A stretch of DNA of 64,000 bases, from contig CALGKB010000004.1 of assembly GCA_937927915.1 (NCBI GenBank), positions 124,001 to 188,000 on the forward strand, written 5' to 3'. Origin of the DNA: an uncultured Pseudanabaenaceae cyanobacterium. GTDB lineage: Bacteria; Cyanobacteriota; Cyanobacteriia; Pseudanabaenales; Pseudanabaenaceae. Positions 6,476-46,166 of the stretch are shown here, in pieces; position 1 is the stretch's first letter; each line of letters starts with the position of its first letter. A program made the position numbers and the translations under genes. The notes under the pieces were generated by a model. It saw only the letters and a program-made list of their open reading frames with translations, ran no database searches and was not told the origin of the DNA.

Positions 6476-7327
6476 CTAGTCCCGCTGCGACAGGAGTTTT
6501 GCCACCAGATTAGCGATCGTTACCAGCAGGCACAAAATCAAGGCTGTTGTCCAGGCTAATTGCTGTTGATTGGCAAAGGGGGAGCGGGAAAATTCATAGA
6601 TTAAAACTGCCAGGGAAGCTGTCCTATCCCACACACTACGTGCCCAATATTGATTGAAAAGGGCAGTAAAAATGAGAGGAGCGGTCTCCCCCATCACCCG
6701 TGTCACTGCCAGGAATATCCCTACTGCAATAGAGGGCAAAGCCGCAGGCAGGAGGACGCCCAACACCACCTGTGCCTCAGTAGCTCCCACTGCCAAAGCC
6801 GCCCAGCGCAAATCCTCTGGTACTTGGTGCAGACTTGCCAAACTAGTACGGAACACCACAGGCAACATGACAATTCCTAGGGCAACTGCCCCCGCCACCG
6901 CAGAAAAGGAGAAACGTCCCTGGGTCAACTGTGCCGTCGGTAGGACAATCAGTCCATAGACAAACACCCCCGTCAGGATAGAAGGGACGCTGTAGAGGAC
7001 GTTAGCCGCCACCTTGATCCCCCTCCCCCCTATCCCTTGCCCCAGCAGGTTGACCGCTCCCATCGCCCCCTCCTGCCCTGCTAATCGCCCCCCTTGGTCC
7101 GGGTCAGAATCAAACTCCGCCACATAGACAGCCGCTGCCACCCCCAGCGGGACACTCCAGACCATCGCCATGGTCACCATAACGATCGTGCCCACCAGAG
7201 CATTGGCAAAACCGCCCCCTTCGCTGTGGGGGGGTGGGGGTAACTGGGTAAAAGCCGCTAAGTCAAAACGGGATAAGCCCTGACGCACCACGTAAAACAA
7301 CAGACTGACCAAGGGGACAAGACACAA
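6476..7327 (-). CDS. pstA: phosphate ABC transporter permease PstA, isolated; start unclear
   Basis: Membrane permease of the high-affinity phosphate importer, normally paired with PstC, PstB and PstS. Six hydrophobic segments and the PstA-type sequence around SVPLGVAAAVYVAEF and the coupling helix region (VFRTSLASLHQVPEDLRWAALAVGA) are clear. The first usable start is TTG at 7327, which would cut into the first membrane helix. The same frame continues upstream to about 7438 and encodes a plausible PstA N-terminus (SWRSLTDRLLSFCALLCTLL) but has no ATG, GTG or TTG, only CTG and ATT. That extension would overlap the gene for the cyclic-nucleotide-binding protein. No other pst gene is in the window. 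Confidence 0.85.
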   Translation of the reverse strand: MCLVPLVSLLFYVVRQGLSRFDLAAFTQLPPPPHSEGGGFANALVGTIVMVTMAMVWSVPLGVAAAVYVAEFDSDPDQGGRLAGQEGAMGAVNLLGQGIGGRGIKVAANVLYSVPSILTGVFVYGLIVLPTAQLTQGRFSFSAVAGAVALGIVMLPVVFRTSLASLHQVPEDLRWAALAVGATEAQVVLGVLLPAALPSIAVGIFLAVTRVMGETAPLIFTALFNQYWARSVWDRTASLAVLIYEFSRSPFANQQQLAWTTALILCLLVTIANLVAKLLSQRD

Positions 7328-7400
7328 AAGCGTGCAGAGCAGCGCACAGAAAGACAGCAGACGATCGGTTAAGGATCGCCAAGAGAGGGAGTAAGTGAGA

Positions 7401-8072
7401 TTATCTCTGTCTTTCCAAACGTCTTTCGTAATCTTTCTTCACCAACTTGTAGATCAGTTCCGCATTAAAAACAGACTGCATGGCTAAACCCATCGTGGGA
7501 TTGCGATCGAGGAGTGCCCGCAACTCTGTTTTCTTCCATTTTAGCACTCTGGTAGGGGCAAGGGTTTTGGTTGTGGCGGTAGCCGCTCCCCCCTGCAAAA
7601 AACTCATCTCCCCGATGATATTGCCGTCTTTCAGTTGGGCAACTTCTTTGCCTGCCTTTTGCACCGACACAAGACCGTTGTAAATCAAAATTACACTGTC
7701 AATATCTTCCCCCTCTTGGCTGATCACAACTTGGGGGGGCAAATTCTGCCACTCCCCTATGCGCAATAACTTCTTGTATTCTAGGAGGGAAAAGCGGTGG
7801 AAGACTGTCTCGTAGAGTTCCATTTCGTCTGGCTGGAATTTTAACTGCCCCCGCTCCACCAAGGCGTACAAAATTTGTCCTGCATTGATGATAATAAAAC
7901 AGCCATTCCACAGAATACCTACCCACAGAGGATGGTCAGCAATTAAAAAGTCATAGCTAATTTCGGCAATGCTGGCACAAATGGCTACGATCCGCAGTAA
8001 TAAAATATCCCTGACGAGGTAACTAATCGCCTGCAGGGAGTAGGAAACATGACCAAATAACTCATAGGGCAT
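7401..8072 (-). CDS. membrane protein with C-terminal cyclic-nucleotide-binding domain
   Basis: About 223 residues. The N-terminal third has three hydrophobic segments (SYLVRDILLLRIVAICASIA; PLWVGILWNGCFIIINAGQI). The rest is a cNMP-binding fold with the phosphate-binding-cassette region (LKDGNIIGEMSFLQGGAATA). In CRP-type cassettes the corresponding segment is GExxL...R; here GEMSFLQGG..TATTK retains the Glu but lacks an obvious Arg. The layout of three short helices followed by a cNMP domain resembles animal Popeye-domain proteins, which is inference. The ATG at 8072 was chosen because it gives an 11-base overlap with the upstream QueD-like gene, whereas the ORF's first start codon at 8135 would give 74. 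Confidence 0.75.
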   Translation of the reverse strand: MPYELFGHVSYSLQAISYLVRDILLLRIVAICASIAEISYDFLIADHPLWVGILWNGCFIIINAGQILYALVERGQLKFQPDEMELYETVFHRFSLLEYKKLLRIGEWQNLPPQVVISQEGEDIDSVILIYNGLVSVQKAGKEVAQLKDGNIIGEMSFLQGGAATATTKTLAPTRVLKWKKTELRALLDRNPTMGLAMQSVFNAELIYKLVKKDYERRLERQR

Positions 8073-8937
8073 AACTAGAGGTGGGCTGCTGTAGCAATTC
8101 GTGGAGAGGGCAATCACTGGGACCAAATACTTCACAGGAATTGTTGGGACTCTCAGTCAGTTTCACCCGATAAAGTTCTGCCCCTAGCTCTCTGATTGGC
8201 TCTGTGAGGACGTTCTGGATATAAACGGCAATGTTTTCAGCAGTGGGCACCACTTCGGCAAAGTAGGGAATATCAAAGTTCAAAAAGGTATGGTCTAAGG
8301 GTTCAATCACGTAGGTTTTGATCACTTCCTCCAACTTTTCCAGATCAATAATCATACCTGTACGGGGATGAATTTGTCCTTTGACTGTAATTTCCACGTA
8401 GTAATTATGTCCATGACCATTGGGGCGGGCACATTTACCATAGATGGCTGTATTTTCTTCCAAAGAAAGGGTCTGTAATGCTAACCGATGGGCGGCAGCA
8501 AAATGGCTTTTGACCGTCAGATATGCTTCCATAGAGTTTCCTTTATAATCTGCCCAAAGTTGTGGATGTTCGTAGAGCTGGATGTTTACCAATGGTAAAT
8601 GGGGAGCAAGGCGTTGCCAAATTACTCTGGCGATATTTTCCGTAGTTGGCAGGGATGCCTGAAATTCTGGCCAGACGTTATTCAAATAACTGAAATTTAA
8701 GTGCTGGACAACTTCCCTGTGGATGATATGTTTGACCTCTGATAGGTTTAAGACCATGCCGTTGTGGGGGTCTATTTCCCCTTGCATGGAGACAAACAGT
8801 TCGTAATTGTGCCCGTGACCAGGGAAAATGCTACCTTTGCCAAAGCGGCGAAAATTTTCTTCTTCCGACAACTCCGGTAACCAATAGCGATGACTGGCGG
8901 CAAACTGGGCACGGCGATTGACAATACACTGAGGCAT
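8062..8937 (-). CDS. tandem two-domain QueD/PTPS-like 6-carboxytetrahydropterin synthase homologue
   Basis: A 291-residue protein made of two consecutive 6-pyruvoyltetrahydropterin synthase-like domains. Enzymes of this family make 6-carboxytetrahydropterin for queuosine or process pterins. The C-terminal domain (about 137-275) is complete: zinc histidines H150, H175 and H177, the catalytic Cys C169 (YGKCARPNGHGHN), D215-H216 and E262. The N-terminal domain (about 5-130) keeps the zinc histidines H16, H41 and H43 and E123. It has Gly35 in place of the Cys and Asn81-Phe82 in place of Asp-His, so it is probably non-catalytic. The ATG at 8937 is well placed at the start of domain 1. Downstream it overlaps the cNMP-binding gene. 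Confidence 0.88.
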   Translation of the reverse strand: MPQCIVNRRAQFAASHRYWLPELSEEENFRRFGKGSIFPGHGHNYELFVSMQGEIDPHNGMVLNLSEVKHIIHREVVQHLNFSYLNNVWPEFQASLPTTENIARVIWQRLAPHLPLVNIQLYEHPQLWADYKGNSMEAYLTVKSHFAAAHRLALQTLSLEENTAIYGKCARPNGHGHNYYVEITVKGQIHPRTGMIIDLEKLEEVIKTYVIEPLDHTFLNFDIPYFAEVVPTAENIAVYIQNVLTEPIRELGAELYRVKLTESPNNSCEVFGPSDCPLHELLQQPTSSYAL

Positions 8938-41606: not shown

Positions 41607-44600
41607 ATGAGTGATCATTTCCCTGCATCTGCTCCTGTTGCCTATCCTGTCTTTTACCGCACCTACAGCCGTCTAATAGAGAACAGACGGGAAAACTGGC
41701 TGGAAGTGTGCCAGCGGACTGTGGCAGGACTTCAGAAACTGGGGAACCTGACAGAATCAGAAACGGAACTGATTGCCCGCTATCAACGATCGCTCAAGTG
41801 CCTTACTTCTGGACGCTGGTTATGGGTGGGGGGGACACCCTGGCTGGAAAACCCTGCCAACTATTCGGGAGCTTACAACTGTACCTCTACTAATGTTACG
41901 GACTGGGAGAGCTTTGGTCTGCTGATGGATTTGGCGATGCAGGGGAGCGGGACAGGGGCAGTCCTAGAACCCAAATATATAGGTCAACTCCCCGTTATCC
42001 GGAACAAGTTGCACGTGCAAGTAGTGGGGACGATCGGTTCTACTCCCAAAGAAAGAAGGAGGGAACAAACAGAAGTAGTAATAGACGGAACTACTGTTTT
42101 TATTTTTGTGGGAGATAGTCGCCAGGGGTGGGTGAAATCCTACCAAACAGTATTAGAGCTGGCAGCAGACGATCGATTTGATGGCGGGGCAATAAATGTC
42201 GTGGTGGACATAAACGATGTGCGCCCGGAGGGGGAGAAGCTCAAAGGGTTTGGGGGTGTTGCCAATCCTGTTAAACTGCCAGGTTTGTACGAGAAGTGCG
42301 CCAAGATTCTGAACCGTGCTGTCGGACGCAAACTTACCGCCCTGGAGTGCTGCCTACTAATCGATGAAGCGGCAAGTACGGTAGTAGCAGGCAATATCCG
42401 CCGTTGTCTCCCTGAAGATGCTCTTGTGCATACATCCAAGGGATTAGTGTCGATTAAAGATGTGCAGGTTGGCGACTTGGTGCAAACTCCTTTGGGATTT
42501 CGGAAAGTCCTGCAGAAATTTGAGCAGGGAATGCAAGAAGTTCAAGAGATTGAGACCAATGCCACTTTCCCTAGAGCAACGATTAACCACCGTGTCGCAG
42601 TTTTGGCTGATGCCAAAGGTAGCATTCGTTGGAAATATGTAGCGGCGCTAGAGGAAGGCGATCGTCTCTTGCACAACAAACAAATTCTTCCTGGAATAGT
42701 CACCCATTTGCCAGAAGATGACACTGAACAACGTCCTAGGCAGAGCCGCAATGCAAAGTCTATTACTATTCCCGCATTAACTGCTGAAGTTGCTTGGTTG
42801 ATTGGATTTACTCATGGGAATGGCTATGTAGCTTTGGGGCGCAATAAGCATAACAAGCCCTATGGGAAAGTAGAATGGGCGATGGATGCAACGCAGCCTG
42901 AACTTTGCAAAAGACTGCAAGAGAAGTTGGATCAATCCTTAGCAATGTTTGGGGTGACCACTACTCATTGTATTGGCAAGGGAGAAAACACTGCTAAAAC
43001 AGTCTGTGACGCAATCCGACTGGCTGAGTACTTCCATAAGCATATTAAGAAGCCAAACACTGTTTTAGAAGTGCCATCTTTCATCTTACAAGGGACTCCA
43101 GATATTCGGGCTGCTTATCTTGCAGGCTTGATGGATAGTGATGGCGCAATCAATAATCGTCCCCCACATCTAGTAACCTCTGTCTACCGTCAATTTGTTA
43201 GACAAGTAAGTGCTGTTCTTTCAAGTCTTGGAATTGCAGGGAGAATCGAAATCACCATTCCCAAGGAAGCAAATTGGCAAGCAAAATATAATCTCACTAT
43301 TCCTGCTTTCAAAGAACGCTATAACGCACTCATCGCTCCCCATTCAGTTAAGGGCAAAATCCGTCAAGGACTGAAGATGTATGGCTTTACGATCCCTGGC
43401 GAGATGCTGCGTGAAGTGTATAGCTACAGCGAAATGCGTGCTATGGGATTCCAAGGCTCTCGTACTGTTGATGCAAACTACGAGCGCTACATTGCCGAAT
43501 CTGAGGTAGACATGGATATTCCTGTGACCGTCAAAGGTCTAGGGAGTCAAGACTTTGTACAAACCTACGACATTGAAGTTGAAGAAGCCCATTGTTTCTA
43601 CTGCGACGGCTATCTGACGCACAACTCAGCGGGCATGCGGCAGGGGGCAGCAGAGGATGCAGAATTTGCAAACGCTAAGGCAAACCTCTGGCAACAGGAT
43701 GAACACGGTAACTGGCGCATTGACCCCGATCGTGATGCCCTGCGCATGGCAAACCATACCCGTGTCTTCCACCGCAAACCCACCTTGATAGAGACGATCG
43801 AGGCAGTCAGAAAACAATATTACTCAGGGGAGGGAGCAATCCAGTGGGCTGGTGAATCCGTAGCGCGCGCTAGTGCGGACATCATTACCCCACAACTCAA
43901 GACCGAATTTATACAAGCTTATACCCAGGACAAGGCGAAGGAATGGCTATCTCAGAGGTTCCCCCACTTGACCGATATAGACGATCGTTTGTCCCGCTAT
44001 GGGTTGAATCCCTGTTTAACTGCTGACACATGGATACATACAGAACATGGTGCTAGACAAATTAGTGATTTGATTGGTAAGCAAGTAGGAGTATATGTTA
44101 ATGGAGAACTATTTAGTACTACCGCAGATGGATTCTTTCTAACAGGTAGCAAGCCCGTAGTTCGTCTACAAACTAAGGAAGGATTCCAATTACGATTGAC
44201 GGAAAATCACAAATTGCTAAAAGTGACAGCACAAACCCCGAAGGCTCAGTACACCGAATGGGTAGAGGCTAAAGACCTAAAAGTTGGCGATCGCATTTTG
44301 CTTCATAACCATAGAGGAATCCAGCCTTGGGGTGGAGAAGGGAGTTTTGATGAAGGTTGGCTAATTGGTAATTTACTTGGGAATCAGGGGAATAATGAAG
44401 CTTGTTTGCGGTACTGGGGTGAGACTAAAGAAGAAATGGCGATCTACGCAGTCAAGACTCTAGAAGCTGCTACGAATTATGTCGCACGAAACCCAGCAGG
44501 GTATTATCACAAACAATTGCAACATAGAGAGATCAACTCTTCTGGGCTAGCAACTCTGGCAGCAAAATTTGGTCTTTCTCCCCGGAATAAAGTGCTATCT

Positions 44601-46166
44601 CCGGCGATCGAACAAGCAAGTTATGAGTTTTATTGTGGCTTTTTACGAGGTCTTTTTGACGCTGATGGAAGTATTCAAGGCAGTCAAAAAGAAGGTATTA
44701 GTATCAGGCTTTCTCAAAGTAACCTAGAGACCTTGCAAGTTGTTCAGAGAATGTTGGCTCGTATAGGTATAATTTCTTCCATTTACCAACAACGGCGGAC
44801 TGCTGGAATACAGATGTTACCAGATAGTAAACGGGAACTTGCCCCCTACTTCTGGGAAGAACAGCATGAACTAGTAATCGCTAATGATAATTTAGAATGC
44901 TTTGCAACTACAATTGGATTTCAAGACCCTCTCAAAGCATCTCGTTTACAGAAATTGTTAGGTAATTATTCCCGAAGAATGAACCGAGAGCGATTTACTG
45001 CTATCGTTACGGCGATCACTCCTGACGGGGTTGAACCTGTCTATGACTGTACTGTCCCTCAAGTATCTCGCTTTGATGCTAATGGAATAGTTGCTCATAA
45101 TTGCGGGGAAATCATAATGTCCAACAACCACTGTAACCTCGCAGAAATCCATCTAAACCTCCTTGACCCCTACGATAAAATAGCCCAGAAGGAAGCGTTC
45201 ACCGCTGGGGCTTTGTCAGCATCTTGTCTACTAAACCACCGTTTCGTAGTAGAACGCTACCAACGTAGCAGGGAGCTAGACCCGATCGTCGGTGTCTCTT
45301 TCACTGGACTGTTCGATTTCTTTGTAAAATTGTTCGGTGTCGGCTGGCTCCAATGGTGGGCAGAAGACCGCCCCGATACAAAACAGGGGAGAAGATATCG
45401 GCAGGAAGAGAGGGAATATTTGACATTCTGGAAAGATATTGTCCATTCTGTTGTCTGGGACTATTGCGATCGTCATGGGCTAAAACGTCCTAACCGTTGT
45501 ACCACTGTGCAACCCGCCGGGACAAAAAGTTTGCTCACCAATGCCTCCCCAGGATGGCATCCCCCCAAAGCTGCCCGCTATATCCGCCGTATAACTTTCC
45601 GCAAGAATGACCCCGTCGCGCTCGCCTGCCTAGACTACGGCTACAATGTTGTCCCTTCCCAGTCCGATAAGGATGAGAACGGCAATCTGTTAAATGACCC
45701 CTTTGACCCCCGCTGTACAGAATGGCTAGTAGAAATTCCTGTAGAAGTCCCTTGGGCAAATCTGCCAGGCGCTGACACGATCGATATTGCTAAATTCTCC
45801 GCCCTGGCGCAGTTCGACTTCTATATGCAAGTCCAAAAATTCTACACAACCCATAATACCTCAGCAACTATTGAGCTTAGAGAAACTGAAATTGAACCCC
45901 TTGCTAAACGTATTTATGAAGCCATTCAGAATGATGAAGGGTACATTTCTGCGGCTCTGTTAGCACGGTTTGATGACCACCAGACCTTCCCCAGACTCCC
46001 CTTTGAACCCATCGATAAACCTACCTACGATCGTCTTGTCGCCGAAATACTCGCCCGCCGTAAAACCGCTGACTTCCACGCCGCACTAGTAAAATACGAT
46101 CGGGATTTCCAAAGAGATGATGAAGCTGGACCTGCCCCCTGTGACTCCGATCGGTGTCTGACTTGA
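41607..46166 (+). CDS. nrdJ: adenosylcobalamin-dependent (class II) ribonucleotide reductase with two inteins
   Basis: Reduces ribonucleotides to deoxyribonucleotides with a B12-generated thiyl radical. The precursor has 1519 residues. Removing intein 1 (267-673) and intein 2 (803-1165) leaves 749, normal for the monomeric RTPR type. Extein motifs: YNCTSTNVTDWESF with redox Cys92, MQGSGTGAVLEPKYIG, NIRR/SAGMRQGAAED across intein 1, NP/CGEIIMSNNHC across intein 2 with radical Cys1166 and redox Cys1176, and a C-terminal CDSDRC pair (1512, 1517) for re-reduction. Typing as monomeric RTPR rests on these motifs. It stands alone, divergent from argG; B12-related genes lie 2-5 kb downstream on the other strand. 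Confidence 0.93.
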   Translation: MSDHFPASAPVAYPVFYRTYSRLIENRRENWLEVCQRTVAGLQKLGNLTESETELIARYQRSLKCLTSGRWLWVGGTPWLENPANYSGAYNCTSTNVTDWESFGLLMDLAMQGSGTGAVLEPKYIGQLPVIRNKLHVQVVGTIGSTPKERRREQTEVVIDGTTVFIFVGDSRQGWVKSYQTVLELAADDRFDGGAINVVVDINDVRPEGEKLKGFGGVANPVKLPGLYEKCAKILNRAVGRKLTALECCLLIDEAASTVVAGNIRRCLPEDALVHTSKGLVSIKDVQVGDLVQTPLGFRKVLQKFEQGMQEVQEIETNATFPRATINHRVAVLADAKGSIRWKYVAALEEGDRLLHNKQILPGIVTHLPEDDTEQRPRQSRNAKSITIPALTAEVAWLIGFTHGNGYVALGRNKHNKPYGKVEWAMDATQPELCKRLQEKLDQSLAMFGVTTTHCIGKGENTAKTVCDAIRLAEYFHKHIKKPNTVLEVPSFILQGTPDIRAAYLAGLMDSDGAINNRPPHLVTSVYRQFVRQVSAVLSSLGIAGRIEITIPKEANWQAKYNLTIPAFKERYNALIAPHSVKGKIRQGLKMYGFTIPGEMLREVYSYSEMRAMGFQGSRTVDANYERYIAESEVDMDIPVTVKGLGSQDFVQTYDIEVEEAHCFYCDGYLTHNSAGMRQGAAEDAEFANAKANLWQQDEHGNWRIDPDRDALRMANHTRVFHRKPTLIETIEAVRKQYYSGEGAIQWAGESVARASADIITPQLKTEFIQAYTQDKAKEWLSQRFPHLTDIDDRLSRYGLNPCLTADTWIHTEHGARQISDLIGKQVGVYVNGELFSTTADGFFLTGSKPVVRLQTKEGFQLRLTENHKLLKVTAQTPKAQYTEWVEAKDLKVGDRILLHNHRGIQPWGGEGSFDEGWLIGNLLGNQGNNEACLRYWGETKEEMAIYAVKTLEAATNYVARNPAGYYHKQLQHREINSSGLATLAAKFGLSPRNKVLSPAIEQASYEFYCGFLRGLFDADGSIQGSQKEGISIRLSQSNLETLQVVQRMLARIGIISSIYQQRRTAGIQMLPDSKRELAPYFWEEQHELVIANDNLECFATTIGFQDPLKASRLQKLLGNYSRRMNRERFTAIVTAITPDGVEPVYDCTVPQVSRFDANGIVAHNCGEIIMSNNHCNLAEIHLNLLDPYDKIAQKEAFTAGALSASCLLNHRFVVERYQRSRELDPIVGVSFTGLFDFFVKLFGVGWLQWWAEDRPDTKQGRRYRQEEREYLTFWKDIVHSVVWDYCDRHGLKRPNRCTTVQPAGTKSLLTNASPGWHPPKAARYIRRITFRKNDPVALACLDYGYNVVPSQSDKDENGNLLNDPFDPRCTEWLVEIPVEVPWANLPGADTIDIAKFSALAQFDFYMQVQKFYTTHNTSATIELRETEIEPLAKRIYEAIQNDEGYISAALLARFDDHQTFPRLPFEPIDKPTYDRLVAEILARRKTADFHAALVKYDRDFQRDDEAGPAPCDSDRCLT
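42405..43625 (+). mobile_element. intein 1 of NrdJ (407 residues, LAGLIDADG type)
   Basis: A self-splicing protein insertion from Cys267 (CLPEDALVHTSKGLVSIKDV) to His-Asn 672-673 (CFYCDGYLTHN), followed by Ser as the +1 residue. Splicing blocks are visible: N-terminal Cys, block B-like ATINHRVAV, block F YDIEVEEAHCFY and block G LTHN. A double-motif homing endonuclease sits between them: WLIGFTHGNGYV (about 396-407) and YLAGLMDSDGAI (about 503-514). In the first motif the catalytic Asp position is Asn. The host site is NIRR/SAGMRQG of the reductase. At least one CGATCG lies inside. Confidence 0.9.
44013..45101 (+). mobile_element. intein 2 of NrdJ (363 residues, LAGLIDADG type)
   Basis: Runs from Cys803 (CLTADTWIHTEHGARQISDL) to His-Asn 1164-1165 (GIVAHN), with extein Cys1166 as the +1 nucleophile. 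Block B is RLTENHKLLKV, block F VYDCTVPQVSRF and block G VAHN. The endonuclease motifs are WLIGNLLGNQGN (about 918-929) and GFLRGLFDADGS (about 1011-1022). The first has Asn at the catalytic Asp position. The insertion point is directly before the radical-bearing Cys of the reductase (NP/CGEI), so the unspliced protein cannot be active. Two CGATCG sites lie inside. Confidence 0.9.

Follow-up and report, generated by a model that had tools for sequence, protein, structure and literature searches.

Does a single cysteine serve both as a splicing nucleophile of an intein and as the radical-bearing residue of the ribonucleotide reductase (RNR) which this intein interrupts, and does such an arrangement have a special meaning for the host? 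This question is raised by an nrdJ gene in the window, i.e. the 64,000-nucleotide stretch of DNA from an uncultured Pseudanabaenaceae cyanobacterium analysed here.

Organisation of the intein-containing nrdJ gene

The product of the open reading frame at 41607-46166 is classified by sequence as a monomeric adenosylcobalamin (B12)-dependent class II ribonucleoside-triphosphate reductase (NrdJ, RTPR, NrdJm). The NCBIfam RTPR model TIGR02505 matched the frame in three pieces with a score of 683 bits (cut-off 340), and in silico excision of both inteins yielded an NrdJ of 749 residues. The features of the locus are as follows (an arrow marks a splice junction):

41607-46166, + strand: nrdJ precursor ORF, 1519 aa, open throughout, with two inteins
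41607-42404, + strand: N-extein, spliced residues 1-266
42405-43625, + strand: intein 1 at site A, 407 aa, NIRR↓CLPED...LTHN↓SAGMRQ
43626-44012, + strand: middle extein, spliced residues 267-395, ending in YGLNP
44013-45101, + strand: intein 2 at site B, 363 aa, with C1, TENH in block B, VYD in block F and an HN end
44369-44386 (approximate), + strand: LIGNLLGN, the first LAGLIDADG motif within intein 2, without the catalytic Asp codon
45102-45104, + strand: TGC, codon of the +1 Cys of intein 2, spliced Cys396
45102-46163, + strand: C-extein, spliced residues 396-749, beginning with CGEII and containing Cys406 and Cys742/Cys747

Intein 1 belongs to an intein family other than that of intein 2. 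In relatives, site A (NIRR↓S) is occupied by several unrelated intein types which end in THN, VSN or VHN.

Identity of the +1 cysteine of intein 2

The initial annotation had placed the His-Asn end of intein 2 directly before the cysteine of NPCGEI and had assigned to this cysteine the roles of radical residue and transesterification nucleophile. The junctions read LSRYGLNP↓CLTADTWI upstream and NGIVAHN↓CGEIIMSN downstream, in agreement with the proposed abutment. The range 44013-45104 given for the intein starts correctly and is three bases too long at its end, since the intein stops at 45101 and TGC encodes the +1 Cys of the extein.

Alignment of the extein sequence with the structure of the Lactobacillus leichmannii RTPR (1L1L) by phmmer covered spliced residues 392-714 and placed GLNPCGEI over GTNPCGEI and Cys396 over chain position 408. 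C408 of the L. leichmannii enzyme is known to carry the thiyl radical, and the alignment thereby bears out the proposed identity of the +1 Cys, which is also the residue expected to act as the transesterification nucleophile. The idea that one residue takes part in two reactions is thus supported by homology of the cysteine. The associated claim that the enzyme is dead before splicing can be kept in a weaker form: the unspliced precursor is very probably inactive, because its NPCGEI loop is interrupted between Pro and Cys. Besides C396, residues N394, E398 and C406 align with 1L1L, C406 lying one gap off C419. The NxCxE motif, the disulfide cysteine and the C-terminal cysteine pair characteristic of monomeric class II RNRs are all present. 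C92, C742 and C747 are fully conserved in the NrdJ comparison, and we infer that C92 is the equivalent of C119.

Splicing residues and proposed mechanism

Intein 2 was matched by the Pfam models Intein_splicing and LAGLIDADG_3 as well as by the N- and C-terminal intein models of NCBIfam. Each element expected of a class 1 intein was found, namely an N-terminal Cys or Ser nucleophile (C1), the block B TxxH motif (TENH, residues 63-66, with T and H invariant), and a penultimate His and terminal Asn followed by Cys, Ser or Thr at position +1 (VAHN↓C). C1, T63xxH66, D345, H362 and N363 showed no variation among 16 aligned homologues, and the junction residues were constant in a larger homologue set. 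The AlphaFold2 model (mean pLDDT 83, pTM 0.85, with low confidence for the last nine residues) revealed a HINT fold with an inserted endonuclease domain, and a Foldseek search with this model returned the solved endonuclease-bearing inteins TliVMA (E 1e-16), PI-PfuI and PI-SceI. The class 3 signature, a block F Cys replacing Asp in an intein without an N-terminal nucleophile, is absent from intein 2, which keeps the VYD Asp together with C1.

Splicing would accordingly start with an N-S acyl shift by Cys1 at Pro395, after which Cys396 would attack the thioester and Asn363 would cyclise. A final S-N shift would remake the Pro395-Cys396 peptide bond, and the freed Cys396 would become the thiyl-radical residue of mature NrdJ. 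A proline at position -1 slows the first splicing step in some inteins, and it is present in all members of the intein 2 lineage. The predicted tryptic junction peptide of spliced NrdJ is YGLNPCGEIIMSNNHCNLAEIHLNLLDPYDK.

Distribution of the intein lineage and use of the site

A profile scan with one genome per species identified 76 loci with an intein related to intein 2, almost all of them cyanobacterial, and viral contigs contributed 14 more loci. The 71 genome loci which parse cleanly comprise 61 monomeric-type NrdJ genes and 10 dimeric-type or divergent RNRs, the latter including carriers from Desulfohalobiaceae and a Kaiserbacterium. All junctions read in relatives conform to NP↓C...HN↓CxE. 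Every parsed site-B intein in related loci abuts the same cysteine, which argues against a chance placement of the boundary.

In a sample of 386 cyanobacterial genomes, 88 contain the empty motif NPCGE(I)(I/L), two of them from the family of the window, and about 27 the occupied form HN↓CGEI. This latter count excludes four matches rejected as chance, which lie in frames with stops; two of them come from genomes that have a genuine site too. Site B is therefore a recurrent intein target with patchy occupancy. A second intein lineage (L023-L029), about 29% identical, uses the same codon boundary. The special meaning which had been read into the arrangement is not upheld, as the site is used by the same lineage elsewhere, by an unrelated lineage and by inteins of class Ib phage NrdE.

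In eight loci (L014, L076-L080, L084, L085) the intein 2 lineage resides in dimeric-type NrdJ with the arrangement CTNP↓C...↓CGEIFLPPNSACNL, and it has thus passed from one RNR subfamily to another while keeping to the homologous codon. The lineage also occurs in the viral contigs L107-L118, some of them longer than 300 kb, where it interrupts divergent RNRs and the junctions read NP↓C...↓CVEI or CSEI. The NrdJ gene of one of these contigs (L116, about 7000-8550) gave broken HSPs with a possible extra interruption before residue 531. At locus L060 (1432-3927), an intein or intron of about 2.5 kb separates extein residues 113 and 114 of NrdJ, close to GSGTG.

Horizontal origin and decay of the endonuclease

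The nearest relative of intein 2 is found at locus L031 of Pseudanabaena sp. UBA1465. The two inteins are 82% identical and the flanking exteins 71%, and an intein identity exceeding the extein identity occurs in only 1.5% of 780 carrier pairs. By this comparison, the copy of intein 2 in the window was gained horizontally. The dN between the two copies is 0.10 at a dS of about 1.5 and is lowest in the splicing blocks, a pattern which points to purifying selection on intein 2. Intein 1 is just 37% identical between the same two loci; therefore, sites A and B have separate histories.

The first LAGLIDADG motif of the window copy carries an 18-nt in-frame deletion where L031 has LVGNLLGDGSLYQ, so that LGN-QGNN of the window aligns with LGDGSLYQ of L031, in which the Asp is kept. 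The second motif (P2, FDADG) is intact. In active LAGLIDADG enzymes, both motifs end in an acidic residue, and that of P1 is lost here. The homing endonuclease is probably dead, because the deletion removes the catalytic Asp, and this loss would have occurred after arrival of the horizontally gained copy. In some relatives (L017, L018, L095, L096, L105), the intein is retained although most of its endonuclease domain is gone.

RNR complement of the host genome

The host genome, which is 98.9% complete, was searched with TIGR02505, TIGR02504, PF00268, PF13597 and PF02867. A single RTPR match was obtained, the nrdJ gene at 41607-46166, and no class I small subunit (beta), class III enzyme or dimeric NrdJ was found; at this level of completeness, a second RNR is improbable. 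Neither PF02867 nor PF00268 matched anywhere in the genome. PF02867 misses even the NrdJ of the window, and its negative result was therefore backed by the other models. With all splicing residues intact and no other detectable RNR in this genome, splicing is therefore needed by the living cell, and we infer that intein 2 splices in its host.

Alternative explanations

In all likelihood, intein 2 represents an ordinary intein of class 1, from a lineage specialised on the RNR radical-cysteine motif. Alternatively, its splicing could have been lost, leaving nrdJ as a pseudogene. The 18-nt deletion would fit such decay, but it lies in the endonuclease part; the splicing residues are intact, the frame of 1519 aa is open, the splicing blocks have a low dN/dS and searches of the genome revealed no other RNR, which makes a pseudogene highly improbable. 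Still less credible is a boundary misplaced by one codon, with the radical Cys on the N-extein side. Intein 2 also starts with Cys, so that NPC can be read at the upstream junction, and the split NrdJ-1 intein, which is inserted one codon later, offers a precedent. The latter intein requires a Ser at position +1 (PMC13123727). However, an intein of class 1 requires a Cys1 of its own and an HN preceding the +1 nucleophile, the Gly which the shifted reading (NPC↓...C↓GEI) puts at +1 would not function, and CxE follows HN in all homologues.

A different proposal accepts the boundary and the splicing activity, and makes intein 2 a switch through which redox state or metals in the environment gate dNTP synthesis; we regard it as unlikely. 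Oxidation of C1 or the +1 Cys, or binding of a metal to them, would slow splicing and thereby control the sole RNR through its future radical thiol, an equally doubtful scenario for this intein. Both residues are oxidisable thiols, a third cysteine (C346, beside the Asp of block F) is shared by all 16 aligned members, NrdJ is the sole RNR found, and endonuclease-defective as well as endonuclease-less copies persist. On the other hand, a search of intein 2 for a conserved redox partner found no invariant cysteine among these 16 members besides C1 and C346, and C346 is replaced in further members (VYDVTV in L114, VFDAQIP in L098/L099) and missing in other lineages at site B (VYDLHVP, VYDTTQ). 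The CPC-type redox trap, as in the MoaA intein, has a Cys at extein position -3. Intein 2 has Leu393 there (LNP↓C), and it lacks the class 3 Cys. Redox- and zinc-sensitive inteins are indeed known from mycobacterial DnaB (PMC6195587, PMC7360933), but DnaBi2 demonstrates that some Cys inteins are not redox sensitive (PMC6195587). Furthermore, a function needed by the host is hard to reconcile with the sporadic presence of the intein and with empty sites in close relatives, and persistence of copies with a dead endonuclease is expected without gating, because removal must be exact. Sequence comparison revealed no signature in favour of redox or metal gating of intein 2.

Why the radical cysteine is targeted and the intein retained

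For an ordinary class 1 intein, the dual role of Cys396 would follow from two circumstances: an intein needs Cys, Ser or Thr at position +1, and the endonuclease lineage targets one of the most highly conserved stretches of nrdJ, whose conservation reflects its catalytic role. Among the 92 Cys/Ser/Thr positions assessed, 28 are at least 98% conserved, and the neighbourhood of C396 is the second most conserved. A choice of the radical cysteine for its own sake need not be invoked, as the conservation of its neighbourhood suffices. Intein 2 would persist because the sole RNR stays functional only if the insert is deleted precisely; inexact removal would be lethal, since the +1 nucleophile is the catalytic residue of this enzyme. 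It thus illustrates why inteins resist loss when their +1 nucleophile doubles as the radical residue in an essential enzyme without a substitute. The presence of the lineage in NrdJ of both types, monomeric and dimeric, as well as in RNRs of viruses makes it well suited to studies of homing and decay at one codon. If splicing were conditional, its importance would be far greater.

An extra intein ten extein residues past site B was observed in 18 of 62 carriers of monomeric-type NrdJ (FH↓C...↓CNL(A/S)E; L034, L051, L059, L060, L093, L096, L106 and others). At this site C, the +1 Cys aligns with C419, an active-site disulfide cysteine, and the inteins end in Gly-Gln or Gly-Asn, not in His-Asn. 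Site C (C406) ranks 57th by the local conservation measure among cyanobacteria, so that conservation fails to explain this site as well as it explains site B. Cyanobacterial NrdJ can thus harbour inteins at two cysteines of its active site which are separated by ten residues.

Comparison with known systems

The intein of bnrdE from SPbeta (SPBc2), with junctions SNL↓C...GN↓CSEV, uses the homologous radical Cys as its +1 residue like intein 2, of which it is a full-length homologue with 27.5% identity. It differs in residing in a class Ib NrdE and in ending with Gly-Asn instead of His-Asn. As both inteins are inserted at the codon boundary before the radical Cys, site B most likely corresponds to RIR1-i of InBase, a name which we transfer on the basis of the shared position. 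According to PMC1635734, alleles at RIR1-i occur in prophages of B. subtilis, in three viruses of eukaryotes (iridoviruses) and in a cyanobacterium. The NrdE intein of Corynebacterium phage P1201 (SNL↓CVTGDT...GN↓CSEIF) likewise has the radical Cys at +1, but it is of mini-intein size and interrupts a class Ib phage gene; according to a survey cited in PMC3653736, this nrdE is functional despite the intein.

The arrangement is not unusual, and nrdJ inteins are already on record (PMC9403480). Those of Thermosynechococcus TA-1 and CL-1 contain an endonuclease, and their insertion site is not given there (PMC9403480); four inteins are attributed to the Trichodesmium RNR (Liu 2003, as cited in PMC1635734). 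Both cases resemble the window in having endonuclease inteins in cyanobacterial nrdJ, a likeness at the level of the gene. More generally, inteins tend to sit in catalytic and ligand-binding sites (PMC7765530, PMC5874633). The R2 (NrdB) intein of Aquifex aeolicus lies between two iron ligands with Cys230 at +1 and splices to give active enzyme (PMC8772380). It shares with intein 2 the insertion into an RNR active site before a +1 Cys, but the host protein is the radical-generating subunit, and Cys230, placed between metal ligands, is not reported to be catalytic. DnaBi1 of Msm is a redox-sensing class 3 intein whose nucleophile is a Cys in block F and for which a disulfide has been demonstrated (PMC6195587). 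Like intein 2, it combines a replication-essential host protein with an oxidisable catalytic Cys; in contrast to this redox-responsive class 3 intein, intein 2 belongs to class 1.
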